Source of the DNA: Psychrobacter sp. JB385
Lineage (GTDB): Bacteria > Pseudomonadota > Gammaproteobacteria > Pseudomonadales > Moraxellaceae
Length of the DNA: 64,000 bases
Direction of reading: 5' to 3'
NCBI RefSeq assembly: GCF_900163785.1
Contig: NZ_FUKN01000001.1
Coordinates: 310,001 to 374,000 of the forward strand
A program made the translations under genes and the position numbers. Below, in pieces: positions 6,851 through 27,035 of the stretch. Position 1 is the stretch's first letter; each line of letters begins with the position of its first letter. The notes under the pieces are model-generated. The model saw nothing but the letters and a program-made list of their open reading frames with translations, searched no databases and was not told where the DNA came from.

Positions 6851-7831
6851 ATGAGCCAGTACATTACTATGACCCATTCAGAGACCGACTATCTTCACAA
6901 CCAGCAGAAAATTGCACAGATGATGATACAGTTAAACCAAATTGTATTGGATAAGCCGCAAGCGGTCAAACTGGCGCTCAGCGGCATATTGGCAGGTGGG
7001 CACATACTATTGCAAGACTTGCCAGGTATGGGAAAGACGACTCTGGCGCAAGGGTTGGCGCAACTGTTGGGATTGAGTTTTAGTCGAGTGCAGTTCACCA
7101 ACGATATGTTGCCAGCAGATATTTTAGGGATGAGTATCTACGATCAAAGTAAGCAAAAATTCGAGTTTCGACCAGGGCCTATTTTTACGCAACTGTTGCT
7201 TGCGGATGAAGTCAATCGCTCTAGTCCAAAAACACAAAGCGCACTGTTAGAGGCAATGGAGGAGCGGCAAGTCACGCAAGACGGGCAAACTTATTTCTTA
7301 CCGCAGCCATTTTTTGTGATTGCAACGCAAAACCCTTTACAGCAAGCAGGCGTGTACCCTTTACCAGAGTCGCAGCTTGATCGGTTTTTGTTGTGCTTAT
7401 CACTGGGGTATCCTTCTCCTACAGCAGAGCGCGAGCTATTAAAAGGTCAGGATCGCCGTGAGCTGTTAAAAGATTTGGCTGCTATGCTTGATACAGAGAC
7501 TGTAATATTGGCTCAGCAAGGGGTCAAACAAGTTTATGTTGCTGATGTGGTTTTAGACTATCTACAGCGTTTGGTGGCAAAAACTCGAGCAAGCCAAGAG
7601 TATCATGGGTTATCCCCACGCGGAGTCTTGTCGTTACAGCGCGCCGCTCAAGCCCATGCGTATGTCTCTGGTCATATGGAGATAACACCTGAAGACATTC
7701 AAGCAGTATTCGCCGCAGTCACTGATCATCGTTTGGGTCAGCGTTTTATACCAGCTCATGTCACAGGTGGTGGACAAGCGCCCTTGACTATCGCTCAACG
7801 CATCTTGGCAGAAGTGCCTGTTGTTGTCTAA
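6851..7831 (+). CDS. MoxR family AAA+ ATPase
   Basis: A 326-residue AAA+ protein of the MoxR class. Walker A is GMGKTT (about residue 58), Walker B is LLLADEVNRSSPK, sensor 1 is VIATQNP, and the C-terminal lid contains LSPRGVLSLQRAAQA. MoxR proteins act as chaperone-like ATPases, usually with partners encoded next door; here these are the DUF58 protein and the transglutaminase that follow. The three genes form the common moxR-DUF58-tgpA cluster. An in-frame ATG at 6869 is an alternative start; neither has a clear Shine-Dalgarno. Cytoplasmic. Confidence 0.9.
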   Translation: MSQYITMTHSETDYLHNQQKIAQMMIQLNQIVLDKPQAVKLALSGILAGGHILLQDLPGMGKTTLAQGLAQLLGLSFSRVQFTNDMLPADILGMSIYDQSKQKFEFRPGPIFTQLLLADEVNRSSPKTQSALLEAMEERQVTQDGQTYFLPQPFFVIATQNPLQQAGVYPLPESQLDRFLLCLSLGYPSPTAERELLKGQDRRELLKDLAAMLDTETVILAQQGVKQVYVADVVLDYLQRLVAKTRASQEYHGLSPRGVLSLQRAAQAHAYVSGHMEITPEDIQAVFAAVTDHRLGQRFIPAHVTGGGQAPLTIAQRILAEVPVVV

Positions 7832-7915
7832 AACGCTATTTAGCAAAAATGCTTATTTAAAATGCTTGCTACATGCTCGTAACTCTTTTAATTCTATGAT
7901 GAGGATAGGGCAACT

Positions 7916-8953
7916 ATGCGTCTTTTGCCAAAAGCCTTAACGGCTCCTATCAGGTCGATATTACGCCGTTGGTTTGACGCGCGGGCACCCAAAAGTGACA
8001 GCGCAACGCTCAACTTGCGTAATATCTATATCTTTTTCAGCCGTGAAGGGTTGTTGTTTGCAGTCTTATTGATCATCACCTTTATTGCTGGTATCAACTA
8101 TGGCAATAATTTGGTACTAGGACTCTGCTTTTATCTTGTCAGCATTTGGCTGATCAGTTTTCATGTGACGTTTGCTCATATCTCAGGATTAAAAGTGGTG
8201 CTGTCAGAAGTGACGATGACCCAAGCGGGTACGCCTGCTTGGGTCACATTGCAACTGCGTAGTGATAGTAGGCAACCAAGAAGACAGCTCTTATTTGGTT
8301 TTGAGCAATCCGATAAAAAAACCATAAAATCTTTGGATAAAAAAAGCCAAAATAACCACGAGGACCAGCATTCTGTACTAGTCACTCAGCTTCAAGGCGA
8401 GCAAACCATTCGTCTGCCTGTTCAGACCGATGCTCGCGGTATGCTTGAACTGCCACGATTGACCATCAAAACCGTATATCCACTAGGTATCATGCGCGCA
8501 TGGTCTTATGTGTATTTTGCCCGCACCGCTTGGGTGTATCCGAAGCCAGAGGTGTTTGATTGGCAAACGTACTATTCAGAGGCAAGCCTAGAAGACTTGC
8601 CAACAGGTGGGCAATATCGACAAGGTCAAGATGAGTTTGAGCGTCTCGATAACTACCGAGAAGGCGAGTCGCTTGCGCGCGTGTCTTGGGGGCATGTTGC
8701 GCGCGGTCAAGGTATGTTTACCAAGCACTTTTCTGATCCTGTCGGTCATGAGCAAACCTTGGACTATATGGATATGCCAGCTGCACACCATGAACAAAAG
8801 CTGTCACAGCTGGCCTATGGCGCGATGGCACTGGGTCAATTGGGCGTGCCATTTAGAATGCGCTTACCCCATGATGCGCCCTCGGTAACTCCGCTTGGTG
8901 AAGGCAATAATTTTGCGCAAACGTGCTTACTCAGATTGGCGAAAGCACCATGA
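7916..8953 (+). CDS. DUF58 domain membrane protein
   Basis: A 345-residue protein with two hydrophobic segments near residues 40-85 and a DUF58 domain in the second half, containing the hallmark GQYRQGQDEFERLDNYREG and SWGHVARG. DUF58 proteins often resemble a von Willebrand A fold and accompany MoxR ATPases; their biochemical role is poorly defined. AGGATAGGG sits 5-12 nt before the ATG. The stop TGA overlaps the ATG of the next gene (ATGA at 8950-8953), indicating translational coupling. Confidence 0.85.
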   Translation: MRLLPKALTAPIRSILRRWFDARAPKSDSATLNLRNIYIFFSREGLLFAVLLIITFIAGINYGNNLVLGLCFYLVSIWLISFHVTFAHISGLKVVLSEVTMTQAGTPAWVTLQLRSDSRQPRRQLLFGFEQSDKKTIKSLDKKSQNNHEDQHSVLVTQLQGEQTIRLPVQTDARGMLELPRLTIKTVYPLGIMRAWSYVYFARTAWVYPKPEVFDWQTYYSEASLEDLPTGGQYRQGQDEFERLDNYREGESLARVSWGHVARGQGMFTKHFSDPVGHEQTLDYMDMPAAHHEQKLSQLAYGAMALGQLGVPFRMRLPHDAPSVTPLGEGNNFAQTCLLRLAKAP

Positions 8954-23967: not shown

Positions 23968-24594
23968 TTAATTAACAAACCTTAAGCCAGATGTTTTTAA
24001 TGCCCATACCAATTCTACGAAGGCGCGACTGTTGGTTAAAGGTTCGCCATCAATAATAAGTACGTAGCCTGCGCCATCAATCCATAAAAACACAAAGCTG
24101 GTTTCAGGAATAAGTAAATCAACTTGCTGAAAAAACGAAATGGCTTGGCTTTCTACTGCCCAGCCGCGTTGTTTTTGCCGCAGTATGAAGCCTGAAAAGT
24201 CAGCAGCGGCCACGCTTAGCATGTCCGCTTCTTCTTGACTATAACCAATGCGTGCCAAGCAAAATCCTTCGTCAGACCCGATGGCAGCACGACGTTTGCC
24301 TGATAAGCTGGCAACCACATAGGGCAAAAATTGATCCAGTGGCAAATTGGGGGCAGGTAAAAGAAGGGATAACTTTTCAATCAAACCTTGCTCTATAAAC
24401 CGCTGTAACCACGTATCAGAATAGCGCTCAAGCCAATCTGCGGCAAGTAAGGTCTGGGGAGAAGACAGCAGGTTTTGTAATGACAGCTGCTCATCAGTGG
24501 GGTCACGTTGTGAAAATGCCTCAAAAATACCCGCTGGTGTCAGAGTCAGATAAGTTTTATCAGCATTTAAGTAAGAAGACATAGTGGCTACCAT
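23968..24594 (-). CDS. Conserved hypothetical, last gene of Roadblock-PAS cluster
   Basis: A ~208-residue soluble protein that I do not recognise. The central part has LPYVVASLSGKRRAAIGSDE and DFSGFILRQKQRGW, and the end looks like alternating strands (SFVFLWIDGAGYVLIIDGEP then NSRAFVELVWALKTSGLRFV). The latter has the feel of a small alpha/beta domain like the Roadblock/LC7 fold, but this is only an impression. The start is uncertain: ATG 24594 or 24582, neither with a clear ribosome binding site; a TTG at 24618 is less likely. It begins close behind the preceding gene on the same strand, so co-transcription is likely. Confidence 0.6.
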   Translation of the reverse strand: MVATMSSYLNADKTYLTLTPAGIFEAFSQRDPTDEQLSLQNLLSSPQTLLAADWLERYSDTWLQRFIEQGLIEKLSLLLPAPNLPLDQFLPYVVASLSGKRRAAIGSDEGFCLARIGYSQEEADMLSVAAADFSGFILRQKQRGWAVESQAISFFQQVDLLIPETSFVFLWIDGAGYVLIIDGEPLTNSRAFVELVWALKTSGLRFVN

Positions 24595-24623
24595 TGTGAT
24601 AAAAGTGAGAGATAACAAATAAA

Positions 24624-25241
24624 TTAGGGTTTAACCGTTTGATCAAGGTGCTGCTGACAGTGGTTCCAGCGCTCATCAAATTGCCAGTCGCTTTTTCCCA
24701 AACGAAACCAAACCAGAGAGAAAGCCAAGCGATCATGGCGTGCGATGCAATGAGCAAAGAATTCATTTTCGATTTGTTCTATCGTGCCCCAATCTTTTTG
24801 GTCTCGCGCTTGCATGAGCTCGCTTGTGATATCTTTGGATATTTCTTTGGCGTCGTCGCTGCTGATGCGTAATCGCTGTTTTTGGTCATTAAGCGAAGGC
24901 GAGACCAAAACACTCCAGCGGGTCGCTAGCATGCTATTGCGTTGAATATATCTTTTTTTATCAATACAATCGCGAAACCCTTGCTTGGCCTCAGGGATTA
25001 AACGATCTTTGATACGGGTAAAAAGATTATTTACGTCATAAGGAATGTCATACCAGCAGCCATAAAAAAAGTCAGCAACCGCCCCTTGTAGCGGTTCTTT
25101 TTCGGTCAAGAGTAGTGCGGCATTGATACGTTGTTCATGAAAATGACGGTTATTGGGTGCCAAAAATACTTTACGCGAGTACAAGCGAAACACGCGGTGT
25201 ATTTCTTTCTCATTTTCTTTGATCAGATCGATATCAGACAT
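24624..25241 (-). CDS. Conserved hypothetical in Roadblock-PAS cluster
   Basis: A 205-residue soluble, mostly helical protein rich in charged and aromatic residues (EIHRVFRLYSRKVFLA, FFYGCWYDIPYDVN, FSLVWFRLGKSDWQFDERW). No domain is recognised, and there is no signal peptide or membrane segment. It lies 96 bp downstream of the PhnD-fold gene and runs 29 bp or less into the next gene, so it appears to belong to the same transcription unit. A start at ATG 25241 is reasonable because AGAGGG lies upstream. Confidence 0.6.
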   Translation of the reverse strand: MSDIDLIKENEKEIHRVFRLYSRKVFLAPNNRHFHEQRINAALLLTEKEPLQGAVADFFYGCWYDIPYDVNNLFTRIKDRLIPEAKQGFRDCIDKKRYIQRNSMLATRWSVLVSPSLNDQKQRLRISSDDAKEISKDITSELMQARDQKDWGTIEQIENEFFAHCIARHDRLAFSLVWFRLGKSDWQFDERWNHCQQHLDQTVKP

Positions 25242-25337
25242 CTTAGAACCCTCTAAATCATAGCTACTGTGACCATTTGGGTGGGGGTGAGTACAGTAGA
25301 CTATGATTCAACGTAGAAAAAACTTATCCATGAATGG

Positions 25338-26087
25338 CTAGTCGAGCAAGGTTTGCATCAAGTCGATCATAAATTCGCCATCTTCTTCGCTCATGGCCTC
25401 AAACCCTTCAGGCATACCAAGCTCAGACAAAGCTCCTTTGCCATCATCATCGTTGTGCAAATTAAGAATGGCATCAATAAAAATCTGTGTATCGGGAAAC
25501 CCTTCTTTGATGAGCAGCACATGGCTGATATCAGCCAGATCACTTTCAATCAGTACTGATAGCTGAGCTTTGGTTAAGCGTGAAAAGCTATGAAAAACCT
25601 CTGCCAAGAAAAAAGCGGCTTGAGCCTCTCCTTTAATCACCTTACGTGCAGCTGCTTGATAGGTTTCGGTAATGTCCCAACTCAGATCAGCCTCTTCAAG
25701 ATCCACGGCCTCTAATAATCGTAAGCCGATTAATTTGACATCGCGATTGTCTGCCATGGCGATAGTAGTGCCCGCCTGAATGTCTTCTAAGCGACTGATA
25801 TCACTATTGGCAGCCGAGGCAATGACCATCTCATCAGATTTGCCGATGGGTCGAGCGATGGCGCGATACCCTTGCTCACGAATCAAAGTGGCTGCGTCAA
25901 AAGGATTGGCATAAATAATCTGAATGTCACCTGCCTCGATGATTTGTGTTTGTTCAGCGTGTGACGCTGGTATATTCAGATGCATATTGAGATTGGCACG
26001 TTTTTGTATCAAGGTGTTGAACATGTGCCAGCCTGCAAAACGTTCAGGCGAGAAATCAGGGGCGATTAACATATTGTGTGTCGTCAT
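25338..26087 (-). CDS. Cytoplasmic PhnD-fold binding protein
   Basis: A 249-residue protein with the type II periplasmic-binding fold of the PhnD family: LIAPDFSPERFAGWHMFNTL at the N-terminus, IQIIYANPFDAATLIREQGY, ISRLEDIQAGTTIAMAD, then AAARKVIKGEAQAAFFLAEVF. Unlike transport-associated PhnD proteins it has no signal peptide, and no ABC permease or ATPase gene is nearby. A cytoplasmic ligand sensor is therefore more likely than a transporter subunit. The ligand is unknown. AGGAAGG precedes the ATG, and only 3 bp separate it from the PAS gene stop, so the two are tightly coupled. Confidence 0.7.
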   Translation of the reverse strand: MTTHNMLIAPDFSPERFAGWHMFNTLIQKRANLNMHLNIPASHAEQTQIIEAGDIQIIYANPFDAATLIREQGYRAIARPIGKSDEMVIASAANSDISRLEDIQAGTTIAMADNRDVKLIGLRLLEAVDLEEADLSWDITETYQAAARKVIKGEAQAAFFLAEVFHSFSRLTKAQLSVLIESDLADISHVLLIKEGFPDTQIFIDAILNLHNDDDGKGALSELGMPEGFEAMSEEDGEFMIDLMQTLLD

Positions 26088-26090
26088 GAT

Positions 26091-26585
26091 TTAACCTTCC
26101 TCGTTTTGTTTCATTTGGGCATACTGAGTCATCGCCGCGTCAATTTTGCTGCGTGATGGCTTGCGGCGTACTGAGGTGTAGCCGACGGTTTCACCGCGAC
26201 GAATGTTCGGCACGACCGTTGCATAGACCCAATAGTGACTGCCATCTTTACATAAGTTTTTGACATAGCCATGCCATTTTTGTCCAGAAGCCGCAGTCTG
26301 CCATAGGTCTGTATAAGCCGCTTTTGGCATGTCAGGATGACGCAAAATGTAGTGCTGCTGACCGATTAATTCATCAATATCGTAACCGCTAATTTCAACA
26401 AAGGCATCGTTGACGTGCGTGATGACACCGTTTAAATCCGTACGCGATACAATCAGCTTGCCATCAGGATAGGCACGTTCGACGCCAGTGTCATAGACCG
26501 TGCGCGAGTGGCCATCATAATAAGTCAAGGTAACCTGCTCAGCAGGCATGTCAGGCTTGTGTGCATCAGGGATGGGAGCGCCCAT
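26091..26585 (-). CDS. Single PAS domain protein (Aer-like PAS)
   Basis: About 164 residues, mostly one PAS domain of the type found in the aerotaxis receptor Aer: LIVSRTDLNGVITHVNDAFV, EISGYDIDELIGQQHYILRH, PDMPKAAYTDLW, then GQKWHGYVKNLCKDGSHYWV and the YTSVRRKPS end. Aer PAS domains bind FAD and sense redox state; whether this one does is unknown. No output domain (kinase, methyl-accepting, GGDEF) is attached, so its signal must pass to another protein. Start at 26585 has AAGGA 7 nt upstream; the longer frame to 26618 is less likely. Second gene of the cluster. Confidence 0.8.
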   Translation of the reverse strand: MGAPIPDAHKPDMPAEQVTLTYYDGHSRTVYDTGVERAYPDGKLIVSRTDLNGVITHVNDAFVEISGYDIDELIGQQHYILRHPDMPKAAYTDLWQTAASGQKWHGYVKNLCKDGSHYWVYATVVPNIRRGETVGYTSVRRKPSRSKIDAAMTQYAQMKQNEEG

Positions 26586-26672
26586 AGTATATCCTTCAGT
26601 TATCGTTATGTTCATCATGATTAAAAAACCAATCTGCTAAGGTATTTATCAATAAAAGTCTAAAAACACTTG

Positions 26673-27035
26673 TCAGATAAGTTTTGCCAGAGCCTCAGAG
26701 GCGCGCTTGATGTCCAAGAATATCAAGCCGAGCTTCGCATTTGGTTTTGCCATGATGGTGAGTACCGCCTCCTCTCCCGATGATGTCATGATCACGTAAC
26801 CCTTTTCCCCTTGGATCATAATACGGTCAATACTGCCGCGTGCCAACTCTCGACCAGCACGATCACCCAGTGACAGTAAAGCCGCTGACATAGCGCCAAC
26901 GCGGTCTTCGTCAACGCCAGTTGGCAGTGCTGAGGCAATCATAAGGCCATCGTTAGAAATTAGGGCAGATGCTTCAACATCCGCTGATGAACTGTTTAAA
27001 TCTTCCAAAATTTGCTGAAACGAATCTGTACGCAT
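26673..27035 (-). CDS. Roadblock/LC7 domain protein
   Basis: A 120-residue single-domain Roadblock/LC7 protein: SADVEASALISNDGLMIASA, then DRVGAMSAALLSLGDRAGRE, IMIQGEKGYVIMTSSGEEAVL, and KLGLIFLDIKRASEALAKLI. Bacterial relatives such as MglB regulate small Ras-like GTPases; others work without a GTPase partner, and no GTPase is encoded in this window. It is the first gene of a five-gene minus-strand unit with PAS, PhnD-fold and two unknown proteins. About 580 bp lie between it and hutI, so it has its own promoter region. Confidence 0.85.
   Translation of the reverse strand: MRTDSFQQILEDLNSSSADVEASALISNDGLMIASALPTGVDEDRVGAMSAALLSLGDRAGRELARGSIDRIMIQGEKGYVIMTSSGEEAVLTIMAKPNAKLGLIFLDIKRASEALAKLI

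Follow-up and report, generated by a model that had tools for sequence, protein, structure and literature searches.

The accepted role of Roadblock proteins is to regulate or scaffold small GTPases. Here we describe a cluster of five genes that encodes one recognisable and one predicted Roadblock protein and no GTPase, located at positions 23968-27035 of a 64,000-nucleotide stretch of Psychrobacter sp. JB385 (the window, C5:310001-374000, in a genome of 3.3 Mb in 14 contigs). We consider it likely that this cluster represents the sensors and scaffold of an MglA-type GTPase module of seven genes and that it acts as a redox- and ligand-responsive Roadblock scaffold on another target.

The closest described systems are the Group 3 MglA systems of the beta- and gamma-Proteobacteria, for which the available part of PMC4316618 gives a receiver-like/winged-helix protein, MglA and one or two MglB proteins, with GTPase motifs comprising an unusual G4 without lysine and a DAR-type G5. 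The mgl locus of Snodgrassella is also of Group 3 and has several MglB copies, one of them far from mglA; an mglB allele altered the edges of soft-agar colonies, an effect that the authors connect with type IV pilus motility (available part of PMC11112851).

The window cluster resembles Group 3 in its MglB-type Roadblock proteins, the one or two MglB being represented by Robl (recognised by Pfam) and geneE (by predicted structure). The likeness extends further in its relatives, where an MglA-type GTPase with a D.R G5 and no NKxD stands beside a protein that begins like a receiver and has a linker of varying length. On the other hand, the GTPase and receiver-like/winged-helix genes are missing from the window cluster, one of its Roadblock proteins is divergent, and genes for a PAS protein, a PhnD-fold protein and geneD are added; no PAS, PhnD or geneD partner is named in the available part of the Group 3 description (PMC4316618). 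The Snodgrassella locus, compared by description only, also differs, as the available part of PMC11112851 makes no mention of PAS or PhnD-fold genes. The window cluster is a derived variant resembling a Group 3 system and, by strict features, not a complete one. A Roadblock gene and a Ras-like GTPase gene in one operon, as in the relatives of the window cluster, also occur in the Streptomyces conservons (Cvn); in contrast to these, no match to the histidine-kinase-like CvnA or to CvnC was found among the five proteins beyond the PAS region. A keyword search, which did not cover supplements, found no paper on a combination of Roadblock, PAS, phosphonate and GTPase.

The five genes and their predicted products

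The cluster consists of five open reading frames (ORFs), all on the minus strand and placed as in the initial annotation, in the gene order Robl, PAS, PhnD, geneD, geneE. Its features are the following:

26673..27035, minus strand: Robl, a single-domain Roadblock/LC7 (MglB-like) protein of 120 amino acids (Pfam Robl_LC7, 66 bits)
26091..26618, minus strand: stand-alone Aer-like PAS protein of 175 amino acids (Pfam PAS_3, 62 bits; Aer 8dik, E 5.2e-36)
26121..26465, minus strand: PAS core with the equivalents of the Aer flavin adenine dinucleotide (FAD) contacts H53, R57, W70, N85 and R115 (alignment; available part of PMC9668731)
25338..26087, minus strand: PhnD-fold protein of 249 amino acids with no evident signal peptide (Pfam Phosphonate-bd, 115 bits; hydropathy)
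25347..25385, minus strand: C-terminal motif E..EFMIDLM.TL of the PhnD-fold protein, a candidate docking helix (invariant alignment columns, 18 sequences)
24624..25241, minus strand: geneD, an all-helical protein of 205 amino acids (AlphaFold2 model)
24583..24623, minus strand: geneD-geneE junction of 41 bp, the site of the receiver-like and Ras-like GTPase genes in relatives (locus comparison)
23968..24582, minus strand: geneE, predicted to be a second, hidden Roadblock protein that has an additional N-terminal domain, 204 amino acids from ATG (AlphaFold2, Foldseek, VIA-align, weak Pfam matches)
23971..24348, minus strand: Roadblock-fold domain of geneE, residues 79-204 (predicted structure)
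24358..24555, minus strand: helix-rich N-terminal domain of geneE, possibly of winged-helix type, residues 10-75 (DSSP of the model)

The gap between the PAS and PhnD genes measured 3 bp, in agreement with the earlier reading, and the remaining gaps 54 bp (Robl-PAS), 96 bp (PhnD-geneD) and 41 bp (geneD-geneE). An alternative TTG start of geneE at 24618 would give a protein of 216 amino acids. Pfam named Robl, PAS and PhnD, which bears out the single-domain Roadblock, Aer-like PAS and PhnD-fold identities initially assigned, and returned no match for geneD or the window geneE. The Robl profile matches MglB and other Roadblock structures.

The last two products had been described as unknown. For geneD, with no Pfam match, this description stands; its AlphaFold2 model is all-helical, with a predicted local distance difference test score (pLDDT) of 81 and a predicted template modelling score (pTM) of 0.55, and the corresponding proteins elsewhere give weak TPR signals below the cut-off. 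For geneE it does not, as the C-terminal two thirds of the protein are predicted to be a diverged Roadblock domain. Residues 79-204 of its AlphaFold2 model match MglB-type folds by Foldseek and VIA-align, with CvnB5 (3leq) among the structural matches, and weak Pfam Robl_LC7 matches were obtained for 20 out of 24 geneE family members (best E 1.7e-4, E up to 0.1), the window geneE having no Robl_LC7 match above the gathering score.

The window PAS aligns without gaps to E. coli Aer over 115 residues, and Aer is its nearest solved structure by sequence. The surroundings of FAD in Aer are formed by H53, R57, M69, W70, N85 and R115 (available part of PMC9668731). All five contacts given in the list are retained in the window protein, M69 being replaced by leucine, and R57, W70, N85 and R115 do not vary across the 89 distinct loci compared. 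Judged by these residues, a redox input through an FAD-type PAS is well founded. Unlike Aer, the window protein stands alone: Pfam finds PAS families only, and none of the membrane anchor, HAMP and kinase-control domain of an Aer receptor.

The PhnD-fold protein shares the Phosphonate-bd family with the PhnD/PtxB binding proteins, and PtxB is its best PDB profile match (E 2.6e-5). It differs from them in three respects. As noted at the outset, no signal peptide is evident, since a crude hydropathy measure shows no strongly hydrophobic N-terminal stretch; no PhnE partner was found, a PhnE permease scoring over the cut-off in none of five genomes tested, the window's own among them (other ABC permeases gave weaker matches); and a C-terminal EFMIDLM motif is conserved, in the form E..EFM[IL]D, in all 89 distinct loci. 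Neither the exported binding protein nor the PhnE permease that make up PhnCDE transport was found in these analyses, and the protein looks cytoplasmic from its sequence.

Conservation of the cluster and the GTPase of its relatives

The cluster was compared over a set of named loci, namely the 80 best of 86 that a geneE profile retrieved; these are mostly from Psychrobacter and are therefore not independent cases. All five genes were present in the same order and on the same strand in 77 of them, some with a gene split in draft contigs (L192, L214, L222). The three exceptions are two loci at contig ends (L171, L217) and one of P. submarinus with geneD and geneE only (L208). Thus, the objection foreseen in the initial annotation, that the genes might not be co-conserved, falls away. 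Among 129 sampled Moraxellaceae genomes, geneD and geneE occur in an identical set of 41, and a close Robl homologue was found in 40 of these, the exception (G059) having geneD and geneE only; in G069 Robl is broken. In an earlier sample of 38 genomes, 25 were of the window's genus, and 19 of these have PhnD. The five genes are conserved as a unit.

A Moraxella-type five-gene cluster was also seen in a record titled Streptomyces cinereus JCM 3040 (L231, BMPS01000005.1), which is probably mislabelled or contaminated. Four genomes of a single Moraxellaceae genus have solo Roadblock genes elsewhere, 44-50% identical to Robl (L110-L113); the one at L111 adjoins, by eye, a ribonuclease R-like and a bioB-like gene.

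The initial annotation proposed a system of new composition lacking a GTPase, and here the comparison with relatives gave a different result. Outside the window's genus, 17 genomes bear the cluster, and in 14 of them (all except G043, G078 and G069) two extra genes lie between geneD and geneE. The first encodes a receiver-like protein of 383-459 amino acids, with no Pfam match over the cut-off in three examples checked, and the second a P-loop, Ras-like MglA-type GTPase of 178-186 amino acids. In an alignment of 21 GTPase sequences from relatives, the D and R of the DAR position (G5) are invariant, and NKxD at G4 occurs in no row. Among the 80 named loci, 19 carry both genes between geneD and geneE and 61 carry neither, the geneD-geneE distance being 1829-2504 bp with the GTPase and 47-262 bp without it. 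Moraxella, three isolates labelled Psychrobacter (pygoscelis, I-STPA6b and I-STPA10) and four betaproteobacterial loci of Ottowia and Acidovorax (L234-L237) are among the 19. The full gene order is Robl, PAS, PhnD, geneD, receiver-like, GTPase, geneE, and in Ottowia sp. GY511 these seven genes are tightly packed: neighbours overlap by 1-4 bases or are 15-16 bases apart. Because the relatives have a GTPase and a receiver-like protein inside the cluster, we conclude that the window cluster derives from the MglA/MglB kind and is closest to Group 3; its novelty is reduced but remains.

The window cluster is flanked upstream by a hut gene set and downstream by a methyltransferase gene, both of which adjoin many close Psychrobacter loci. 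As the methyltransferase gene is absent from the fetched flanks of all 19 GTPase-bearing named loci, the flanking hut and methyltransferase genes were excluded from the unit.

At class level, the geneE profile matches 32 of 321 genomes, including that of the window and one weak fragment with stops (G398), and 20 of the 31 other geneE loci, from other Gammaproteobacteria, were fetched. Profile scans identified Robl in all 20, the GTPase in 17, and PAS and PhnD in 11. Where traceable, the genes run geneD, receiver-like, GTPase, geneE, Robl, PAS, PhnD, which is the Moraxellaceae order permuted. Owing to weak profile matches at this level, the ORFs upstream of the GTPase were chosen by position and size; the resulting sets agree with the profile of the receiver-like protein at 97% (14 sequences) and with that of geneD at 96% (9 sequences), with hhalign used for geneD.

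The GTPase is missing from three of the 20 class-level loci, L270, L277 and L285, and no family GTPase was found in their genomes either (completeness 79, 99 and 98%, the first two of one genus). L270 and L277 have a protoglobin domain between geneE and Robl (L270:8294-8728 and L277:8128-8562; Pfam 79 and 73 bits), and profile scans found no PAS or PhnD at either locus, which suggests a sensor exchange with a haem oxygen sensor. At L285, which has PAS and PhnD and no GTPase, a second, divergent PhnD-like protein lies between geneE and Robl (~7523-8200).

Loss of the GTPase and alternative explanations

A tree was built from the concatenated Robl, PAS, PhnD and geneE proteins, using 36 of 42 candidate rows (six were dropped for missing or split genes or as duplicates). 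It contains two separate changes from GTPase-bearing to GTPase-less clusters, each on a fully supported branch. One GTPase-less clade of 16 rows, for which we coin the name crown Psychrobacter, includes the window, whose nearest row is Psychrobacter aquaticus; the other consists of L098 and L099 of another genus. Since the outgroups carry the GTPase, its loss is the simpler direction, and the tree indicates that the GTPase and receiver-like genes were lost in crown Psychrobacter and, independently, in the second clade.

Selection on the remaining genes was expressed as pN/pS, the ratio of the nonsynonymous to the synonymous difference proportions. Among 53-54 Psychrobacter loci (58 considered, L171, L192, L200 and L208 excluded, L212-L214 not included), pN/pS was 0.023 for Robl (54 loci), 0.095 for PAS, 0.109 for PhnD, 0.136 for geneD and 0.091 for geneE. 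The corresponding values in 12 genomes without a detectable family GTPase were 0.023, 0.095, 0.112, 0.133 and 0.089. On these ratios, the five genes are under purifying selection in Psychrobacter despite the GTPase loss.

A possible but rather unlikely alternative is that the five-gene module still uses a GTPase encoded elsewhere, either the BLUF-linked GTPase of the window's own genome or an unrecognised one. Of the 24 same-genus genomes with geneD and geneE (one of them, G059, with a partial cluster only), 12 encode a family GTPase at another locus, including the window's own genome, and Robl has retained 85-90% identity to the Robl of GTPase-bearing Moraxellaceae clusters. However, no family GTPase and no PF03029 match over the cut-off was found in the other 12 genomes, while all four tested genomes with an intact family GTPase give such a match, and no relaxed selection was seen. 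In a tree, the GTPases encoded at other loci are separated from those of the clusters (support 81/87, not starred, with the own-genome GTPase on a long branch), and the BLUF locus has Roadblock-like genes of its own, assigned by weak matches. A family GTPase was found in none of the seven sampled same-genus genomes without the cluster.

This second GTPase module, outside the window at C5 ~171160-173450 (L121:6161-8450), encodes a 141-amino-acid Roadblock/LAMTOR-like protein, a 242-amino-acid BLUF protein (Pfam 79 bits), a 177-amino-acid GTPase and a 138-amino-acid Roadblock-like protein. It is a candidate blue-light-linked Ras-like switch, and a keyword search of the literature found no paper combining MglA, roadblock and BLUF. 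A further arrangement was seen in two other Moraxellaceae genera (L114:4574-12055 and L115:4878-12151), with a receiver-like protein, a GTPase, a fusion of ABC ATPase and phosphatase, two or more Roadblock-type proteins, a fusion of ferredoxin and globin, a histidine kinase with PAS and what looks by eye like a NarL-type regulator; Pfam was run on L115 only.

An ancestral five-gene unit that gained the GTPase and receiver-like genes afterwards is disfavoured and very improbable. The majority of GTPase-less loci among the named loci (61 of 80) would agree with it, but that sample is dominated by Psychrobacter, the operon GTPase is found in Ottowia and Acidovorax as well as in most of the fetched loci of other Gammaproteobacteria, and the tree fits two losses. 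It is hardly credible that the cluster is a decaying, functionless remnant in Psychrobacter: partial clusters do occur, with geneD and geneE alone in L107 and L208 (P. submarinus type) and with PAS and PhnD lost and an internal stop in Robl in L100 (G069, another genus), but pN/pS values of 0.02-0.14 for all five genes are far from 1. A chance neighbourhood, in which PhnD comes from a phosphonate-type transporter, as its family membership would allow, and the others from unrelated units, is barely conceivable given the lack of an evident signal peptide, the lack, in the five genomes tested, of a PhnE over the cut-off that could point to the partner in a transport operon considered in the initial annotation, and a synteny conserved across beta- and gamma-proteobacteria.

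Several observations weigh against our preferred explanation, a Roadblock scaffold derived from a GTPase module. The own-genome family GTPase at C5:172506-173030, beside Roadblock-like and BLUF proteins, might serve as a partner. With geneD and geneE missing from 7 of 31 same-genus genomes, the cluster is dispensable for the genus. At class level, PAS and PhnD are missing in 9 of the 20 loci, and the geneD and receiver-like profiles match only 7 and 1 of them, respectively. The Aer H53 equivalent is glutamine in 26 of the 89 loci. For geneE, the profile-profile comparison with Robl is not significant (hhalign 0.7-3%), no more than one Foldseek hit attains E 0.001 and the model has low confidence in the strand region 144-159, so that its assignment as a Roadblock protein rests on structure prediction together with weak Pfam matches. 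Finally, any pairing among the five products is something that we infer.

Proposed working of the module and its meaning

In the full form of the module, Robl and geneE would pair, as a heterodimer or within a mixed oligomer, and in this form control which nucleotide state the small GTPase adopts. The FAD-type PAS, presumably with bound FAD, would report the redox state or the electron-transport flux, while the cytoplasmic PhnD-fold protein may report a small anionic ligand and dock through its conserved C-terminal helix. Both would feed redox and ligand state into the Robl-geneE pair, which in the seven-gene form would set the GTPase, with the receiver-like protein as the probable output. In crown Psychrobacter, including the window, the GTPase and receiver-like genes were lost and the other five kept, and the five-gene form would have a different direct target, for which surface behaviour such as type IV pili is a possibility. 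The two-input cytoplasmic sensor of the initial annotation is retained here as to its redox input (backed by the conserved FAD contacts), the cytoplasmic look of the PhnD-fold protein and, for the five-gene form, an output left unassigned, and is given up as to its new composition without a GTPase.

Surface behaviour is a candidate output because of the effect of the Snodgrassella mglB allele and the co-occurrence with PilT, both of which are indirect. PilT of the usual kind was found in 24 of 24 same-genus genomes with the cluster versus three of seven without it, which shared ancestry could also explain.

The stronger proposal, that a Roadblock heterodimer, joined in one signalling complex by an FAD redox sensor and a cytoplasmic ligand sensor of PhnD fold, operates with no GTPase at all, the switch having been lost more than once and its regulators kept under selection, has in our judgement an even chance of being correct. 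The loss of the GTPase on more than one occasion, in Moraxellaceae together with its receiver-like partner, while the rest stays under strong selection, raises the question of the function of a GTPase-free Roadblock complex. The available parts of the descriptions consulted (PMC4316618, PMC11112851) name no input for Group 3 MglA systems, and the seven-gene form would offer them a candidate, namely flavin redox state together with a small ligand. The protoglobin at two geneE loci and the BLUF or ferredoxin-globin proteins at other GTPase/Roadblock loci fit the idea of exchangeable redox, oxygen or light sensors. Therefore, the interest of the cluster lies in a candidate input side for Group 3, a predicted hidden second Roadblock protein, and a GTPase that was lost more than once without loss of the rest.

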